From Kiritimatiellia bacterium (GTDB lineage Bacteria > Verrucomicrobiota > Kiritimatiellia > JAAZAB01): DNA of 40,169 nucleotides. Positions 22,672 through 34,239 of this stretch are shown piece by piece (within the stretch, counting starts at the first letter, position 1; each line of letters opens with the position of its first letter). The position numbers and the translations under genes are program-made. The notes below the pieces were generated by a model that was not told the DNA's origin, did no database searches, and was given only the letters and a program-made list of their open reading frames with translations. The DNA lies in assembly GCA_028715905.1 (NCBI GenBank), contig JAQUQV010000021.1, positions 1-40,169 of the forward strand, written 5' to 3'.

Positions 22672-24333
22672 ATGAACCAGATTCAGGTTTCCGTTGAAGG
22701 TGGCGCCGCGCAAAATTACCCGGTTAACACGCCGGTTTCCGCCCTTTTGAGAACCCCGCTTGACAAGCGCGGTTTTCCTTTCATCGGCGCGCTGGTCAAC
22801 CATTACACAGTTTCGCTTTCTTATCCTCTGAAAGTCAACTGCCGGGTGCGTTTCCTGACGGCGGCCGACCCGCTGGGAATGCGCATTTACCGCAATTCGC
22901 TTTCCTTTCTGCTGGCCAAAACCGTCTGCCAATACTTTCCCGGTGTCCGGCTCTGCATTGAACATTCGCTCAGCACCGGAGTTTTTTACACCGTTGAAAA
23001 CGCAAAAAAAGGCGGCCGGGCGGCGCTTTTCCGTCAAATTGAAAAAAAAATGCGGCAGACCGCGGCCGCAAACCCGGCTATTGAAAGACGCAACCTTTCA
23101 TTCGCGGACGCGATCAAACTGCTGGAACGCGCCGGCCTGAAAGAAAAAGCCGATCTCCTGCGTTTCCGCAACCCGCCCAAGATAACCGTTCACTGGTGCG
23201 ATGGTTTCTTTGATCTGGCCCACGGCCCCCTGGCTTCCCGCGCCGAAGACCTGAAATGTTTCCGTTTGATCAATTATCCGCCGGGACTCGTGCTGCAGTT
23301 TCCCGATCCGCGAAATCCGCGGCGCGCGGCCGGATTCCGCGCGCAGCCGCACTTGTTCAATATTTTTCACGAACACAAGGAATGGGGCCGCATTCTCGGC
23401 GTCAGCAATGTCGGCCGGTTGAACGAACTTATTGCCGCCGGCGAAATCGTCAATTTCATCAGAATTTCCGAAGCGTTCCATGAAAAAAAAATAGCGCGGA
23501 TTGCCGACGCCATCCAGGCGCGCCGGGGACAGGTCAGGTTGGTGTTCATCTCGGGGCCGTCCGCCGCCGGCAAAACGACTTTTTCAAAACGGCTGGCGAT
23601 CCAGATGGAAGTGAACGGCATGCGGCCGATCACGCTTTCACTGGACAATTATTACGTGGACAATGAAAAGACGCCCCGCGACAAAAGCGGCAAGCCAGAT
23701 TACGAGCATATCAAGGCCCTGGATGTCGCCCTTTTCAACCGGCACCTTGTCCGCCTGATCCACGGCGGGGAAATTGAGCTTACCCGTTTTGATTTCGGCC
23801 GCAAAAAAAGGATCATGACGGGCCGGAAACTGAAAATTGAACGGGATCAGATCGTCATCGTTGAGGGCATTCACGGCCTGAACCCGGCCTTTACACCCAT
23901 GCTGGACCGGCGGCGGCAATTTAAAATTTACATCAGCGCCATGACCCAGCTCAACATTGACTGCCACAACCGGATATCAACAACCGACAACCGCCTGATG
24001 CGCCGCATGATCCGCGACCATATCTTTCGCGGTAATCCGCCCCTGACCACCCTGAAAATGTGGCCGGTGGTGCGGCGCGGTGAAAAACGATGGATTTTCC
24101 CGTTCCAGGGCCAGGCCGATGTCTTTTTCAATTCCGCCCTGGATTACGAACTGGCCGTCCTCAAACCGCTGGTTGAACCGCTCCTGATGCAAATCAAGCC
24201 GGCCGATCCCGAATACGCCGAAGCCAGGCGGCTGCAGGAATTTCTCTCAAACTTCCTCGGCGTGGTCAAAAACGCGGTTCCGCCCACGTCCATTCTGCGC
24301 GAATACATCGGGTCCAGCACTTTCAAGTATTGA
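22672..24333 (+). CDS. TGS-domain uridine-kinase-like nucleoside kinase
   Basis: A 553-residue multidomain protein. Residues 1-60 form a TGS-like domain (NQIQVSVEGGAAQNYPV). About 60-230 resemble the second additional domain of threonyl-tRNA synthetase (IEHSLSTGVFYTVEN and, further on, HWCDGFFDLAHGPL). The C-terminal kinase domain has a Walker A GPSAAGKT at 295-302, LDNYYVDNEKTPRD, DFGRKKR and IVIVEGIHGLNP, as in uridine kinase/phosphoribulokinase proteins. This architecture is known in several phyla, including PVC and Spirochaetes, usually annotated as nucleoside kinase; its true substrate is not settled by sequence. There is no clear ribosome binding site. Confidence 0.85.
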   Translation: MNQIQVSVEGGAAQNYPVNTPVSALLRTPLDKRGFPFIGALVNHYTVSLSYPLKVNCRVRFLTAADPLGMRIYRNSLSFLLAKTVCQYFPGVRLCIEHSLSTGVFYTVENAKKGGRAALFRQIEKKMRQTAAANPAIERRNLSFADAIKLLERAGLKEKADLLRFRNPPKITVHWCDGFFDLAHGPLASRAEDLKCFRLINYPPGLVLQFPDPRNPRRAAGFRAQPHLFNIFHEHKEWGRILGVSNVGRLNELIAAGEIVNFIRISEAFHEKKIARIADAIQARRGQVRLVFISGPSAAGKTTFSKRLAIQMEVNGMRPITLSLDNYYVDNEKTPRDKSGKPDYEHIKALDVALFNRHLVRLIHGGEIELTRFDFGRKKRIMTGRKLKIERDQIVIVEGIHGLNPAFTPMLDRRRQFKIYISAMTQLNIDCHNRISTTDNRLMRRMIRDHIFRGNPPLTTLKMWPVVRRGEKRWIFPFQGQADVFFNSALDYELAVLKPLVEPLLMQIKPADPEYAEARRLQEFLSNFLGVVKNAVPPTSILREYIGSSTFKY

Positions 24334-28043: not shown

Positions 28044-30296
28044 TTACTCCCGCCCCGGTTGTTTTTTTATGATTTTTTTTCGCAACATGCCTTTCACGAA
28101 ATGCTTCAAATCATAATAATAAAAGGGAATGTTCATCCAAAAGCGGTAATCCCGGCCGAAGGATGCCATGTATCTGGCAAGAAACATTCTCCTGCCTTTC
28201 CAGCACAAGGGGTGGCACATCCGCATCAGGTCGCAAAGCCTTGCCCGCAAGCCGATGCTTTTATAGCAAAAGACGGCGCGGGCGGTGTCAATCAGCGCGA
28301 ACGCAATGTCCCGGCCGGGTTGTATTCTGAAGAGAAGATTCCCGGCGGAAAGGTCCCGGAAATAAACGCCCCGGTCATGGATTGTTCTCAGGAAAAGCGC
28401 CAGCTGATCGTAAAACTCGCCGTCCTGCAGTCCCTCAAATTCGGCGCCATTGTTCCCCCGTGCATGGTAAGTTTCGCTGAAAGCGGTAAAAGCTTTCCGG
28501 ACGGAAAAACTTTCCGCAAAATCCTCGCACACGTACCAGCCTGCGCGCGCAAGGGGCGCTTTTGAACCATGAAAAAACGCGATCGGCCCCGGCGTGGCGA
28601 TGCCGCGCCGTAAAAGCTCCTGGGCTCCGTTCCAGCTGCGCAGGGCCTTGTCGCCCTTATGCCCGGACAAAAAACGCCTGATCAGCGGCAACGGCCTGAA
28701 TTGTTTGACGATTACGTTTTCATTTGTATCCCCGCCGGGCAGGGCGCGCCAGACCCGGTTGCGGGCGTCGCGGAGAATTTTTGCCTTCGCGTCCGCCGTT
28801 GGCGGCGCAATTATATCCAATATTTTGCCGGCATAATCATGCCGGCAGACGCCTTCCAGATTATCGCGCGCGATAAAATCATATTTCCTTCCGGCCGTGT
28901 TCGCGAAACGGATGTGTTGCAGGACGCGCGGCTTGCCCGTCATTGCCGGCGCGGGCGCGCGATTTTCGGAAAATCCCGGACCGGGCCAGAAAATATAAAC
29001 CGGGCTTTCGGAAATCATGGCGGGCGGCTCGTCCAGCGGAACGCCGGCGCGCGAGTAAAAGCGCGCGCGTTTCAGCGCCTCTTTTGCATAACAGTCTCCG
29101 GTCAGGGCGCAACGTCCGTTCATCGTCCAGGCAACATGGAGCAGGCCGCTTTTCGCGCGGAATTCATGGATTTCAAGGCCGTATTCCGAGGGGATTTTGC
29201 GGCTGTAAGCCGTTCCGGACAATAACCGGTTCACGGCCTTAAAGGCGAAATATGCGGGCCGGACACGATAACCGGCTGGATTGCCGCGCGCCTCGCCGTA
29301 AAAGGTTACATGCGGTATTTCCGGAAATTCCGCGGTGCCGTCGTCAATCAACCCCTCGCGCTGGCCGATCAACGGCCCCCAGTAAACATTTTCAAGGGCG
29401 CCGCTCGCGGCGGCCAGACAGCAATAACGCGCCAGATAATCAGCCTGTTTTTCTTCGGTTTCTCCCAGAAAACGCGCGATTCTCCGCAAACTCCAGGAAA
29501 CATGCGGACAAATGGTTTTCGGCACAGCGAAAGACAAGGCAATATCTTTGAGCGTCATTGCCTTGCGAACCAGGTTGAAACGGAAAACACCGGCAAAAAT
29601 CCGGCCGGCGATTTTATGGTCGTAGGACTCCGGTTCCGAGGCGCGCTCCACAAAAAGATTGTCGGTATGAACGGCGGGCAGCAACCCGAGCTGTTTCATC
29701 CGGCTCAACAAGGCAATATTGTAAACCGGCTCAAAATCGGTTACATTGGGGGCGGCCAGCGCGCAATTATGGGCGGACGCCGCCTCGCAGGCAATCCGCC
29801 AGGCGTGCAGATACCCCGGCAGGGTATAACCGGACCATTTGCGCCGGTTACAGGTTGAACCGATTTCAACAAGATCAACCTCATGGCCGTAGGCGGCCAG
29901 AGTTTCGGCCACAAACAGCCGCCAGTCCCGGCCGGCCTGGGCGTTGCCCGGCAGGGACTCGGCCTCGGAACGGGATTGCACCAGGTGGAGGCAGATTTTG
30001 AACTTTTCGTCAATCAGTCTCCTCAACAGCCGTTCCTGAAATGTACTGCGGCTGGCGGCCGCAAAATCAACCCGTACGCGGCGCAAACCGAGCTCTCTCA
30101 GGCGCGCGACAATAATATCATCGCAGGCAGAGTCTTCGCCACCGGCCACGCCGACGCCGAAAAAATCATCGCCGACCAGATGTTCTCCGGGAGGCTTATC
30201 GCCGCCAATGGCGCGCCAGCGGCCGGACAAAGCATATTTTAATACGGCCGGCGCGGCGCGGAAAAATGCAAATAAATTTTGCCAAAATGCGGACAT
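28044..30296 (-). CDS. putative glycoside-hydrolase-like domain fused to a WaaP-like kinase
   Basis: A 750-residue protein with two unrelated parts. The C-terminal ~220 residues match lipopolysaccharide core kinases (WaaP/Kdo kinase type): NENVIVKQFRPLPLIRRF with the ATP-binding lysine, WYVCEDF hinge, RDLSAGNLLFR catalytic loop near 647-657 and IDTARAVF as metal-binding segment. The first ~420 residues look like a TIM-barrel glycoside hydrolase-type domain: RRVRVDFAAASRS, DLVEIGSTCNRRKWSG, NVYWGPLIGQREGLID. This half was judged by strand pattern and conserved Asn/Glu/Trp positions only. It probably acts on envelope glycan. The ATG at 30296 is preferred over TTG at 30317. It diverges from pgi and is coupled to the thioesterase. 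Confidence 0.72.
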   Translation of the reverse strand: MSAFWQNLFAFFRAAPAVLKYALSGRWRAIGGDKPPGEHLVGDDFFGVGVAGGEDSACDDIIVARLRELGLRRVRVDFAAASRSTFQERLLRRLIDEKFKICLHLVQSRSEAESLPGNAQAGRDWRLFVAETLAAYGHEVDLVEIGSTCNRRKWSGYTLPGYLHAWRIACEAASAHNCALAAPNVTDFEPVYNIALLSRMKQLGLLPAVHTDNLFVERASEPESYDHKIAGRIFAGVFRFNLVRKAMTLKDIALSFAVPKTICPHVSWSLRRIARFLGETEEKQADYLARYCCLAAASGALENVYWGPLIGQREGLIDDGTAEFPEIPHVTFYGEARGNPAGYRVRPAYFAFKAVNRLLSGTAYSRKIPSEYGLEIHEFRAKSGLLHVAWTMNGRCALTGDCYAKEALKRARFYSRAGVPLDEPPAMISESPVYIFWPGPGFSENRAPAPAMTGKPRVLQHIRFANTAGRKYDFIARDNLEGVCRHDYAGKILDIIAPPTADAKAKILRDARNRVWRALPGGDTNENVIVKQFRPLPLIRRFLSGHKGDKALRSWNGAQELLRRGIATPGPIAFFHGSKAPLARAGWYVCEDFAESFSVRKAFTAFSETYHARGNNGAEFEGLQDGEFYDQLALFLRTIHDRGVYFRDLSAGNLLFRIQPGRDIAFALIDTARAVFCYKSIGLRARLCDLMRMCHPLCWKGRRMFLARYMASFGRDYRFWMNIPFYYYDLKHFVKGMLRKKIIKKQPGRE

Positions 30297-30307
30297 CAGG
30301 CTAGAAT
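30279..30307 (+). promoter_or_regulatory. candidate promoter of pgi
   Basis: TTGCCA (30279-30284) and TAGAAT (30302-30307) are separated by exactly 17 bases; the start point would be near 30314, about 38 bases before pgi. It overlaps the first codons of the divergent fusion gene. A near-palindrome, GCTTATTAATAAAGC, lies just downstream in the leader (about 30321-30335) and could be an operator. Confidence 0.5.
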
Positions 30308-30351
30308 AATGCAACACAAACGCTTATTAATAAAGCTAAAAGAATCTCTCA

Positions 30352-31989
30352 ATGAAAAAGAATGGATTTAATCCGATCAACCTTCCGGAATGGAAACATC
30401 TTGCGCAACATTGCCGCCGGATACGAAATGTTCATCTTCGCGATTTATTCGCACGGGACTCCCGCCGCGCCCAGAAATTCACCCTTTCCGCCGAAGGTCT
30501 CACGCTGGACTATTCAAAGAACCGGGTTACTTCCGAAACCATGCGCGCCCTGTTTGCCCTGGCGCGCGCATGTGGGATCGCAAAAGCGCGCCGGGCAATG
30601 TTTTCGGGCCAGGCGATCAACCGCACCGAAAACCGGCCGGCGCTCCATATCGCCCTGCGCCATATTTCCGGCGGGCCAATCCTGGCCAACGGCACGGACG
30701 TCATGCCGGAAGTGAAAAGGGTTTTGCGCCAAATGGACCGTTTCAGCCGCGCGGTCCGGGAAAATGCATGGCGCGGCCACACCGGCAAAACGATCCGCAA
30801 CATAATCAATATCGGCATCGGCGGCTCGGACCTCGGGCCCGCCATGGCTTACGAGGCCCTCAAGCCGTACGCTAAAAGGGACCTGAATGTAAAGTTTGTC
30901 TCCAATATTGACGCCGCCCACCTGCTGGAAGCGGTGCGCGGACTGGACGCCGCGGAAACGTTGTTCGTGGTCGTATCAAAAACCTTCACCACGCAGGAGA
31001 CGATTGCCAACGCGCTTTCGGCGCGCGCCTGGTGTTTGGCCCGGCTGAAAACCGAAAAAGCGGTTAAAAAACATTTTGTGGCGGTTTCCACCAGCACGGA
31101 AAAGGTAAGGGAATTCGGAATTGACCCGGAAAACATGTTCGCGTTCTGGGACTGGGTCGGCGGCCGCTATTCGCTCTGTTCGGCGGTGGGCCTTGCCCTG
31201 ATGCTGGCAATCGGCCCTGAAAATTTCAACCGGATGCTGGCCGGCTTTCACGCCATGGACCAACATTTCCTGACCGCGCCCCTGAATAAAAACATGCCGG
31301 TGATCATGGCCCTGCTGGGAATATGGTATAATAATTTTTTCAACGCGCAAACCCAGGCCGTTCTGCCCTACTCCCAGTATCTGGCGCGTTTCCCGGCTTA
31401 TCTCCAGCAGGCGGACATGGAAAGCAACGGCAAGAGCATCGCCCGAAACGGGAAAAAAGTCCGTTGGCAGACCGGGCCGATAATCTGGGGCGAGCCCGGC
31501 ACCAACGGCCAGCACGCGTTTTACCAGCTTCTGCACCAGGGCACGAAACTGGTCCCGGCCGATTTCATCGGGTTTGGCAGGCCCGTTGAAGAACTCGGCG
31601 AACACCATGCCATGCTTATGGCCAATTTCTTTGCCCAGACCGAAGCGCTGGCGTTCGGCAAGACCGCGGGCGAGTTGGCCGCGGAAAAAATTGCGGCCGG
31701 ATTGATTCCGCACAGGACTTTTGAGGGCAACCGGCCGACCAACACTATTTTGGCCGCAAGGCTTAATCCGGCCGCGCTCGGCAAGCTGATCGCTCTTTAC
31801 GAACATAAAATATTCACCCAGGGCGCAATCTGGAACATTTATCCCTTTGACCAGTGGGGCGTCCAGCTCGGCAAGGAGCTGGCCGGGAAAATACTGCCGG
31901 AATTGCAGGTTGCGCGGCCGGCAAAACTCAAGCATGATTCTTCCACCAATGCGCTCATTAAACGTTTCCGGGCAATGCAAAAAAAATGA
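30352..31989 (+). CDS. pgi: glucose-6-phosphate isomerase
   Basis: A 545-residue PGI interconverting glucose-6-phosphate and fructose-6-phosphate. The signatures are [34 protein letters not shown] for phosphate binding, [17 protein letters not shown], and [18 protein letters not shown] with the catalytic Glu and His. [13 protein letters not shown] near the C-terminus holds the catalytic lysine. Length is that of the common proteobacterial/eukaryotic-type enzyme. Its stop overlaps the start of the XylR-type regulator by ATGA, an unusual pairing of a housekeeping glycolytic gene with a sugar-responsive regulator. Confidence 0.96.
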
Positions 31990-33134
31990 CCCGCAAAGTC
32001 GGCATCAGGCTTTACATGGAGTTTGAACACAACCGCCGCCTGCTGGAGGGTATTCTGCATTATATCCGGGGCGGCGCGCAGTGGCAGATTGCCGCCAACC
32101 CGTTTGCCAGCCACCATTGGCCGGAAATTTTAAAGCAATGCGACGGCGCCATTCTCCAGGTCTATGAAAAGCCGCTGGCCACAGTCGTCAACCAGATGGA
32201 TATACCCATGGTCAGCGTGGTTAACAGCGCTTTCACGCCGGGATTACCGGCGATTATCAACGACGACTTTGCCGTAGGAAAAATGGCGGCCGAATACTTG
32301 CTGGGATTAAACTGCCGGGCTTTCGGCTTTGTCGGATTCTACCACCCCAGAGAATGGTCGCATGAAAGGGGAATCGGCTTTGCCGAAGGCCTTAAAAAAT
32401 CCGGGGTGGCATGCCGTTCATTATCGCCGCCCGGGACCGGGCGGACGCCTTTTAAATATTTATGGACGGCGGCGGGTTTGAAGAAATGGCTGAAATCATT
32501 GCCGCCGCGCACGGGCATATTCGCCGCCACTGATTTTGTGGGCGTTATGGTCATTGACGCCTGCCGCGAACTCGGCCTGGCCGTGCCGGAAGATATGGGC
32601 GTCATCGGCGTTGACAACAACGTCATGCTCTGCGAAATGGCTTCCGTGCCGCTGACCAGCATCGCCACCGATGCGCCCCGGCTGGGATTTGAAGCCGCGC
32701 AAATGCTTGATCTGATGATGAAGGGCAAAGAACCGCGCCCGCGCCGGATAAAACTGCCGCCGCTTGATATTGTCATCCGCCGGTCAACCGAATTTTTTGC
32801 GATTGACGATCCGGTCCTGGCAAAAGCCATGCAGTTCATTGCCGCCAATTGCCAGAAACACATCGGCGTGGAGGATGTGCTCAAAGCCGCGCCGTTACTG
32901 TGCCGGCGCAACCTTGAACGGCGGTTCCGGGACAAACTATCCAGTTCAATTCATGCGGCCATTATCCGCGCCCGGATTGACCGGACCAAAAGACTGCTGG
33001 CTGAAACCAACCGGGGGATAAACCTCGTGGCGGAACAGGCCGGTTTCTCCGACGCAAAAAAATTAAACGGGCACTTCCGCAAAGCCACGGGACTCACGCC
33101 CACCGCCTACCGGAAAAAATGTTCCCTGCCATGA
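31986..33134 (+). CDS. XylR-type transcriptional regulator (LacI-like sensor plus AraC DNA-binding domain)
   Basis: A 382-residue regulator. Residues 1-270 are a periplasmic-binding-protein-like sugar sensor ([59 protein letters not shown]), and the last ~100 residues are an AraC-type double helix-turn-helix ([43 protein letters not shown]). This arrangement is typical of XylR-like regulators abundant in Planctomycetes, Verrucomicrobia and Lentisphaerae. It overlaps the pgi stop by 4 bases and probably answers to a sugar. The target genes are unknown and could include pgi itself. Confidence 0.92.
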
Positions 33135-34202
33135 TCAACCGGACCGGGCAATCGCCGGGAGGGATGCTTCCTCGCGGATCCGCGTGGAAATTCTTGTCAA
33201 CCTTGGCTTTTCCCGGCCCTCAAGCCAGGCAAACACGCGCGCGAGCATGGCCTCGTGCGGAACGACCACGGCAGTCAAGGGCACTTCAAAATATAAACTT
33301 TCAGGCAGACCGTCCCAGGAAATAAAAGCCAGTTGTCCGGGAACGCGCACTCCCTTTTCACGGAGACGATGAATCATCCCAGCGGCGACCCGGTCGTCAT
33401 TAACATAAACGGCCTTTGGCAGGCCATGACGCGCAAAGGAAAGGAGGCGTTCCGCGGCAAGCTCCCCCCGTTTGAAAAGCGGCGTCAAACCATCGGACGC
33501 CAATTCATAAAATTCCGCCCGGATCCCGCCGCGCGGATAATATTTTTCCGGGATGGTCTCAAAAAAGCCTTTGGGCAGTATCAGCCGCTTGTATCCCGCC
33601 GCAATCATGAAATCAAGGGCCTGTTTCCGGGCGCGGGCGCGGTCAAAACCGACGACAGCGCTTTTTCCGGACAACAAAAGCGCATCGGGATTGACGGCCG
33701 GGAAGGGAAAGTCATAGAGCATGCAGGCGGCGCGGGGAACGCTTCCGAAGAATCTGACCCATGAACCAAGATTGTCTTTGTTGATGCCGGCGGAAAAAAC
33801 TATCAGCTTCTCAACTCTGTATATCTTCAGAAATTGAACCGTGTCCGCCATGTTGTCATTGCCGAACGGCAGGACGATATAAGTTTTGCGGGTTTGTTCC
33901 AACCTCTCAACCAGGCTGAAAAAAGCGTTTTTATGATGATCCACCGGCCGCGCCGGGATAAGCACGGCAATTTCCTTCACCGTTTTGCCCCGCAGGGCCA
34001 GGCCCAGCAGGTTCGGCCGGAAACCGACCTCGCGGACATAGTCCAGGACTTTTTCGGCGGTAGCGCGGGAAATCCCCCGCGCCGCCCAGCGGTCGTTCAG
34101 AATATACGAGACCGTGACGCGGGAAAGACCGAAACGTTCCGCGATTTCGCTCACTTTTCCGGGCGTTTCAGGTCGGCTGCGTTTTTTTGCGCTTTTTTTC
34201 AT
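33135..34202 (-). CDS. LacI-family transcriptional regulator
   Basis: A 355-residue LacI/GalR-type regulator with a basic N-terminal extension. The helix-turn-helix is VSEIAERFGLSRVTVSYILNDR with the hinge FRPNLLGLALRGK; the ligand-binding domain includes KEIAVLIPARPVDHH and LAFISWDGLPES, which is somewhat divergent at the C-terminus. The ATG at 34202 is used; a TTG at 34226 lies within the operator region. It diverges from the amidohydrolase pair, with two repeated ACATGTAGCA boxes in the 108-base gap, so it is the likely repressor of that pair and of itself. Confidence 0.9.
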   Translation of the reverse strand: MKKSAKKRSRPETPGKVSEIAERFGLSRVTVSYILNDRWAARGISRATAEKVLDYVREVGFRPNLLGLALRGKTVKEIAVLIPARPVDHHKNAFFSLVERLEQTRKTYIVLPFGNDNMADTVQFLKIYRVEKLIVFSAGINKDNLGSWVRFFGSVPRAACMLYDFPFPAVNPDALLLSGKSAVVGFDRARARKQALDFMIAAGYKRLILPKGFFETIPEKYYPRGGIRAEFYELASDGLTPLFKRGELAAERLLSFARHGLPKAVYVNDDRVAAGMIHRLREKGVRVPGQLAFISWDGLPESLYFEVPLTAVVVPHEAMLARVFAWLEGREKPRLTRISTRIREEASLPAIARSG

Positions 34203-34210
34203 TTCCTTGC

Positions 34211-34239
34211 TTGACACATGTAGCAAGACAGAATATCCT
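34211..34239 (+). promoter_or_regulatory. promoter of the amidohydrolase pair A/B
   Basis: A perfect TTGACA (34211-34216) and TATCCT (34234-34239) lie 17 bases apart, reading toward the gene at 34311. The first operator box overlaps the last base of the -35 hexamer and the spacer, placing the regulator where it would block RNA polymerase. Confidence 0.6.

Follow-up and report, generated by a model that had tools for sequence, protein, structure and literature searches.

Fusion of a GH39/PslG-like barrel, predicted to be non-catalytic, with a WaaP-type kinase in Kiritimatiellae and other bacteria

Lipopolysaccharide (LPS) kinases of the WaaP/RfaP family (PF06293; structure 6DFL) are stand-alone proteins of approximately 260 amino acids (aa). 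The C-terminal helices of Pseudomonas aeruginosa WaaP bind acyl-ACP (PMC6147952). It is not well understood how such kinases select one hydroxyl group among those of a large glycolipid. PslG (5bx9), a GH39-like glycosidase of Psl exopolysaccharide synthesis, is located at the inner membrane and in the periplasm, carries no kinase, and its catalysis runs through E165 and E276 (PMC9075953). The binding of glycans by pseudoglycosidases that do not cut them is a known principle, exemplified by α/β-Klotho and the chitinase-like protein YKL-39, which are ligand-binding glycosidase barrels without catalytic residues (PMC7828330). These belong to other GH families and are animal, extracellular proteins with no kinase.

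The window analyzed here, i.e. the whole stretch of 40,169 nucleotides from a Kiritimatiellia bacterium, contains a gene encoding a protein in which a predicted barrel precedes a WaaP-type kinase (Table 1). An in-frame ATG at position 30296 (residue 8), taken as the start codon in an earlier note on this DNA, is an alternative start; no clear ribosome-binding site was found before GTG 30317 or ATG 30296. A Pfam search of the protein identified only PF06293 (Kdo/WaaP kinase) at residues 558-700, leaving the N-terminal ~500 residues without a match. The earlier note had proposed a single polypeptide with a glycoside-hydrolase-type TIM barrel ahead of a WaaP-type kinase, and this arrangement is borne out by structure prediction, the intact reading frame and its recurrence, with homologues of similar length being present in many genomes.

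Table 1. Predicted features of the barrel-kinase fusion gene and its product
Feature	Residues	Position	Strand	Remarks
Fusion CDS		28044..30317	(-)	757 aa from GTG at 30317, stop at 28044; frame uninterrupted
(β/α)8 barrel, GH39/PslG type, predicted non-catalytic	~53-366	29220..30161	(-)	AlphaFold2, Foldseek, PDB profile
β-strand domain packed after barrel	~370-445	28983..29210	(-)	Strands in predicted models
Strand-4 end, EIGSTCN	151-157	29847..29867	(-)	Clan-A N-E acid/base site; Glu position is Thr155
Strand-7 end, PHVSW	271-275	29493..29507	(-)	GH39/PslG nucleophile Glu site; His272 in the window protein
WaaP/Kdo-family kinase	~505-757	28047..28805	(-)	PF06293; WaaP 6DFL profile match; full-model fold match
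Predicted ATP-binding Lys (K51 of WaaP)	Lys538	28704..28706	(-)	Conserved in 41/42
DLSAGN catalytic loop, Asp655 and Asn660	655-660	28338..28355	(-)	Conserved in 41/42
Metal-binding Asp, DFG-like motif (IDTAR)	Asp677	28287..28289	(-)	Conserved in 41/42

A whole-genome search within the same class revealed relatives in 29 of 58 genomes, and a scan of 84,980 species genomes yielded 161 relatives, 80 of which were kept. At approximately 73 loci both domains are encoded in one frame, in either of two orders. Going by record titles, with metagenome bins making up many of the entries, the barrel-kinase order, represented by the window protein, occurs in Kiritimatiellae, Lentisphaerae, Phycisphaerales, Beta- and Gammaproteobacteria and Geobacteraceae; the kinase-barrel order is found mainly in PVC bacteria and additionally in one Saccharospirillum. 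Other PVC genomes, where the earlier note had proposed to look for it, thus contain the fusion, and its spread extends beyond this group. Because both domains share one frame at ~73 loci of other genomes, their chance joining can be dismissed, as can a frame error in a pair of genes that is otherwise always separate, which the note had named as a finding that would overturn its proposal. The exceptions to the fused form are L009, whose kinase part looks broken, apparent contig-edge or frame-broken pieces (L033 and L096), and a relative from Sumerlaeota without a kinase (L097:6839-8077). In the latter, the gene adjoins one encoding a class 3 lipase, and Thr and Phe occupy the catalytic positions; the barrel can therefore exist on its own. 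A plasmid search gave no match, and a phage search returned a single unannotated 4.2-kb record containing the kinase part only.

In trees of both the kinase and the barrel, each type lies on its own side of one branch, with strong support for the kinase-barrel type and weak support for the barrel-kinase type. Barrel and kinase distances are correlated within each type (r = 0.59 for barrel-kinase proteins, with 0 of 2000 permutations as high, and 0.88 for kinase-barrel proteins). The two orders may have a single origin: the kinases of both types sit close together, and a one-clade constraint was not rejected (p-AU 0.71), although the branches are long. That the same pair exists in two orders speaks for joint action of the two domains.

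The fold of the N-terminal part was examined at the levels of structure and sequence profile. An AlphaFold2 model of the barrel built from a 46-sequence alignment (pLDDT 91.6, pTM 0.92) comprises eight β/α units followed by a small β-domain, together spanning residues ~53-445. With this model, the best solved Foldseek match was PslG (E 4.9e-17, TM 0.63-0.66, 17% identity), followed by GH39 xylosidases and related enzymes. A PDB profile search with the window-type barrel alignment also retrieved PslG (E 4e-4), the sole match below E 1. Since these two results draw on different information, the predicted barrel can be firmly assigned to the GH39/PslG fold, and not to one unrelated to glycan enzymes, the outcome that would have counted against the earlier proposal. 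No Pfam glycoside hydrolase family was matched in 41 full-length proteins (the window protein and 40 relatives) or in the barrels of 24 kinase-barrel proteins. When the window protein alone was searched by sequence against the PDB, no useful match emerged, and profiles built from kinase-barrel barrels, or from both types mixed, produced chance matches only.

Although the barrel fold of GH39 and clan GH-A is present, the paired catalytic Glu residues are not. At the acid/base position, where the clan-A N-E reads S-T, barrel-kinase proteins have Thr in 45 of 46 cases and kinase-barrel proteins Ala in 23 of 24, with Glu in none of either (0/46 and 0/24); this strand-4 register was set by motif and spacing (108 to 117 residues between the two catalytic positions in the family versus 111 in PslG) rather than by residue-level structure alignment. 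The nucleophile position of the barrel-kinase type is occupied by His, Ala, Tyr, Ser and others (Glu in 0/46), while the kinase-barrel type retains Glu in 24/24. As a check of the latter register, the PslG strand-7 motif STEWGW aligns to the non-acidic "staafW" of window-type barrels. The suggestion that the barrel trims a glycan is therefore not supported, as both clan-A Glu are missing in 46/46 barrel-kinase proteins and the PslG nucleophile aligns to a non-acidic position. Invariant residues nevertheless cluster where the C-terminal strand ends form the sugar site: these ends account for 80 of 320 positions but for 15 of the 30 invariant residues (p 0.0017), compared with 1 of 30 for the opposite end of the barrel. 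Such a distribution is that of a ligand site which has been retained while its chemistry was lost, and the conserved sugar-site face is the one feature suggesting that the barrel binds a glycan.

The C-terminal part was recognized in the earlier note as a WaaP-type kinase by its motifs at residues 654-662 (HRD-like) and 676-681 (DFG-like). PF06293 matches, similarity to 6DFL and intact active-site residues all agree with this assignment. The PF06293 score of the window protein is marginal (21.8 bits, cutoff 21.3), and the model is matched by 40 of 41 members at E ≤ 0.01. PDB profile searches placed WaaP 6DFL within the top three for window-type kinases, with eukaryote-type Ser/Thr kinases also matched, and first (E 1e-12) for kinases of the kinase-barrel type. 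WaaP was also the top kinase match in a fold search with the full-length model, among whose matches Klotho structures appear. Among 42 kinases of barrel-kinase architecture, the lone exception in the active-site residues is L084, which is gapped and degenerate. In P. aeruginosa WaaP, a change of the matching Lys or of either Asp abolished growth (PMC6147952). The fusion kinases share the fold and catalytic residues of WaaP, but differ in carrying a ~450-residue barrel module and in having mostly Phe in place of the HRD His. The window kinase scores far below the equivalog cutoffs for RfaP/WaaP (NF011703, 14.8 versus 170 bits) and Kdo kinase (NF002475, 16.9 versus 142 bits), so a heptose or Kdo acceptor does not follow from the sequence.

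In the full-length model (pLDDT 91.8, pTM 0.92) the two domains are predicted to form a compact unit, with the barrel and kinase tightly packed. A clear membrane-spanning segment was found neither in the window protein nor in nearly all relatives; the kinase-barrel protein L101 has a hydrophobic stretch. Because the kinase needs ATP and such a segment is missing, the barrel, and with it the fusion protein, is expected to be cytosolic, unlike PslG.

In Azonexus and Methylobacillus, the fusion gene shares a locus with rfaP. The Azonexus locus contains genes encoding a GT4 glycosyltransferase, RfaP heptose-I kinase (432 bits, cutoff 170), two more WaaP-type kinases and MsbA (779 bits, cutoff 602); a 200-aa kinase gene follows that of MsbA and is overlapped by the fusion gene. 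The equivalent Pseudomonas locus comprises several heptose kinases and PA4998 adjoining msbA (PMC8005017). In both Methylobacillus and Pseudomethylobacillus, the fusion gene is a neighbor of rfaP and overlaps the heptosyltransferase I gene at its end; in Methylobacillus this gene, waaC, scores 341 bits (cutoff 185). Several kinase-barrel genes come after those of a heptosyltransferase and a GT2 enzyme: L118 and L122 are the last in an overlapping GT9-GT2-Rce1 chain, and L102 lies downstream of GT9-GT2. A GT4 gene is located immediately upstream of the fusion gene in several Kiritimatiellae. Altogether, a recognized glycan or LPS neighbor is present at 31 of 77 loci (18 of the 50 longer ones), the window locus not being among these, and a further WaaP-type kinase in 11 of the 50 longer loci; the whole genome of the window organism has three PF06293 matches.

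The neighbors in the window encode RNase HIII, a thioesterase and a divergently oriented PGI. The PGI gene is kept in close relatives only, so it probably reflects shared locus ancestry. A lipid link through the coupled thioesterase had also been proposed. No homologue of this gene was found in any of the relatives' neighborhoods searched, and the coupling was rejected. The genome encodes LpxC, KdtA and three GT9 proteins, which makes an LPS core plausible in this organism.

Taken together, we propose, with a probability of about 0.6, that the fusion protein is a cytosolic sugar kinase acting on a core-type envelope glycan, likeliest lipid A-core (the LPS inner core) before its export, and that a non-hydrolytic GH39/PslG-like barrel recognizes the acceptor. 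The cleft of the barrel would bind at least one sugar of the nascent core and thereby place a neighboring sugar hydroxyl in the kinase active site, which presumes that the cleft faces this site in the predicted packing. Phosphate would then be transferred from ATP through Lys538, Asp655, Asn660 and Asp677, as is expected of the WaaP family, and the phosphorylated lipid-linked sugar would be exported. The two orders would be alternative means of joining the same two domains. Within this proposal we infer both the identity of the substrate and the binding role of the barrel. Of the earlier idea that one polypeptide both reads or trims a glycan and phosphorylates it, trimming is not supported, and reading combined with phosphorylation is the most likely interpretation.

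The acceptor might instead be another cytosolic lipid-linked glycan, such as an exopolysaccharide, O-antigen or glycolipid, with the location in core loci of Azonexus and Methylobacillus being one variant. The closest fold, PslG, does belong to an exopolysaccharide pathway (PMC9075953), LPS-core neighbors are missing at most loci, that of the window included, and the GT4 genes of Kiritimatiellae would suit such a role. We nevertheless consider it unlikely, since the neighbors that are informative encode heptosyltransferase, RfaP and MsbA, and the kinase belongs to an LPS kinase family.

Still less probable is a bifunctional enzyme whose barrel cuts a glycan by means of unusual catalytic residues and whose kinase phosphorylates the product. 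Its appeal lies in the GH39/PslG fold with a conserved sugar-site face, in the nucleophile Glu of all kinase-barrel proteins, and in an invariant Glu151 four residues ahead of the lost acid/base. However, none of the barrel-kinase proteins examined has either clan-A Glu, no kinase-barrel protein has the acid/base, and the variability of the nucleophile position in the window type is unlike that of an active site. A regulatory protein, in which the kinase targets a protein or itself under the control of the barrel as a sugar sensor, would fit the profile matches to eukaryote-type Ser/Thr kinases and the Tyr kinase activity reported for WaaP (PMC9138534). It seems very improbable given that the WaaP structure is the top kinase match of the model, that the gene neighborhoods are those of LPS synthesis, and that regulatory domains and a membrane sensor are lacking.

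Open-access literature searches returned no description of a barrel paired with such a kinase. Both parts and the pseudoglycosidase principle are already known, and the pairing is a new variant rather than a new category. The fusion protein resembles PslG in its tie to envelope glycan synthesis, and Klotho and YKL-39 by principle only. Relatives occur in several phyla, yet Pfam lacks a model for the barrel family, so that the fusion proteins are visible only as weak "LPS kinase" matches. If the preferred reading, that of an acceptor-recognizing barrel joined to a glycan kinase, is correct, acceptor recognition could be tested directly on a kinase whose sugar-binding barrel is permanently attached, and a glycosidase fold would have found a new use in envelope synthesis, as a module that recognizes the substrate. 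More tentatively, at somewhat below even odds, these proteins may constitute a new class of glycan kinases, widespread and built of two parts, with the acceptor selected by a dead glycosidase barrel. The pair would be kept across phyla in both orders and linked to a CAAX-like (Rce1) intramembrane protein, which the window's family has fused to another WaaP-type kinase.

The fused form of this partner is encoded on another contig of the window genome, C43 (L124:70-1821, (-) strand), as a 583-aa protein composed of an Rce1/CAAX-like intramembrane protease and a second WaaP-type kinase, a combination conserved in the window's family. Several kinase-barrel genomes instead have the Rce1-like gene as a separate unit that lies directly upstream of the kinase-barrel gene and overlaps it. 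Tandem double WaaP-type kinase proteins are encoded near the fusion gene at several loci (L061:2768-4402, L048:3357-4880 and L051:10656-12209).

Elsewhere in the window, positions 22672-24333 encode a protein of 553 aa that combines a uridine-kinase/phosphoribulokinase-type domain with a weakly TGS-like N-terminal part. A XylR-like regulator composed of a periplasmic-binding domain and an AraC-type HTH is encoded at 31986-33134, convergent with the gene of a LacI-type regulator at 33135-34226.
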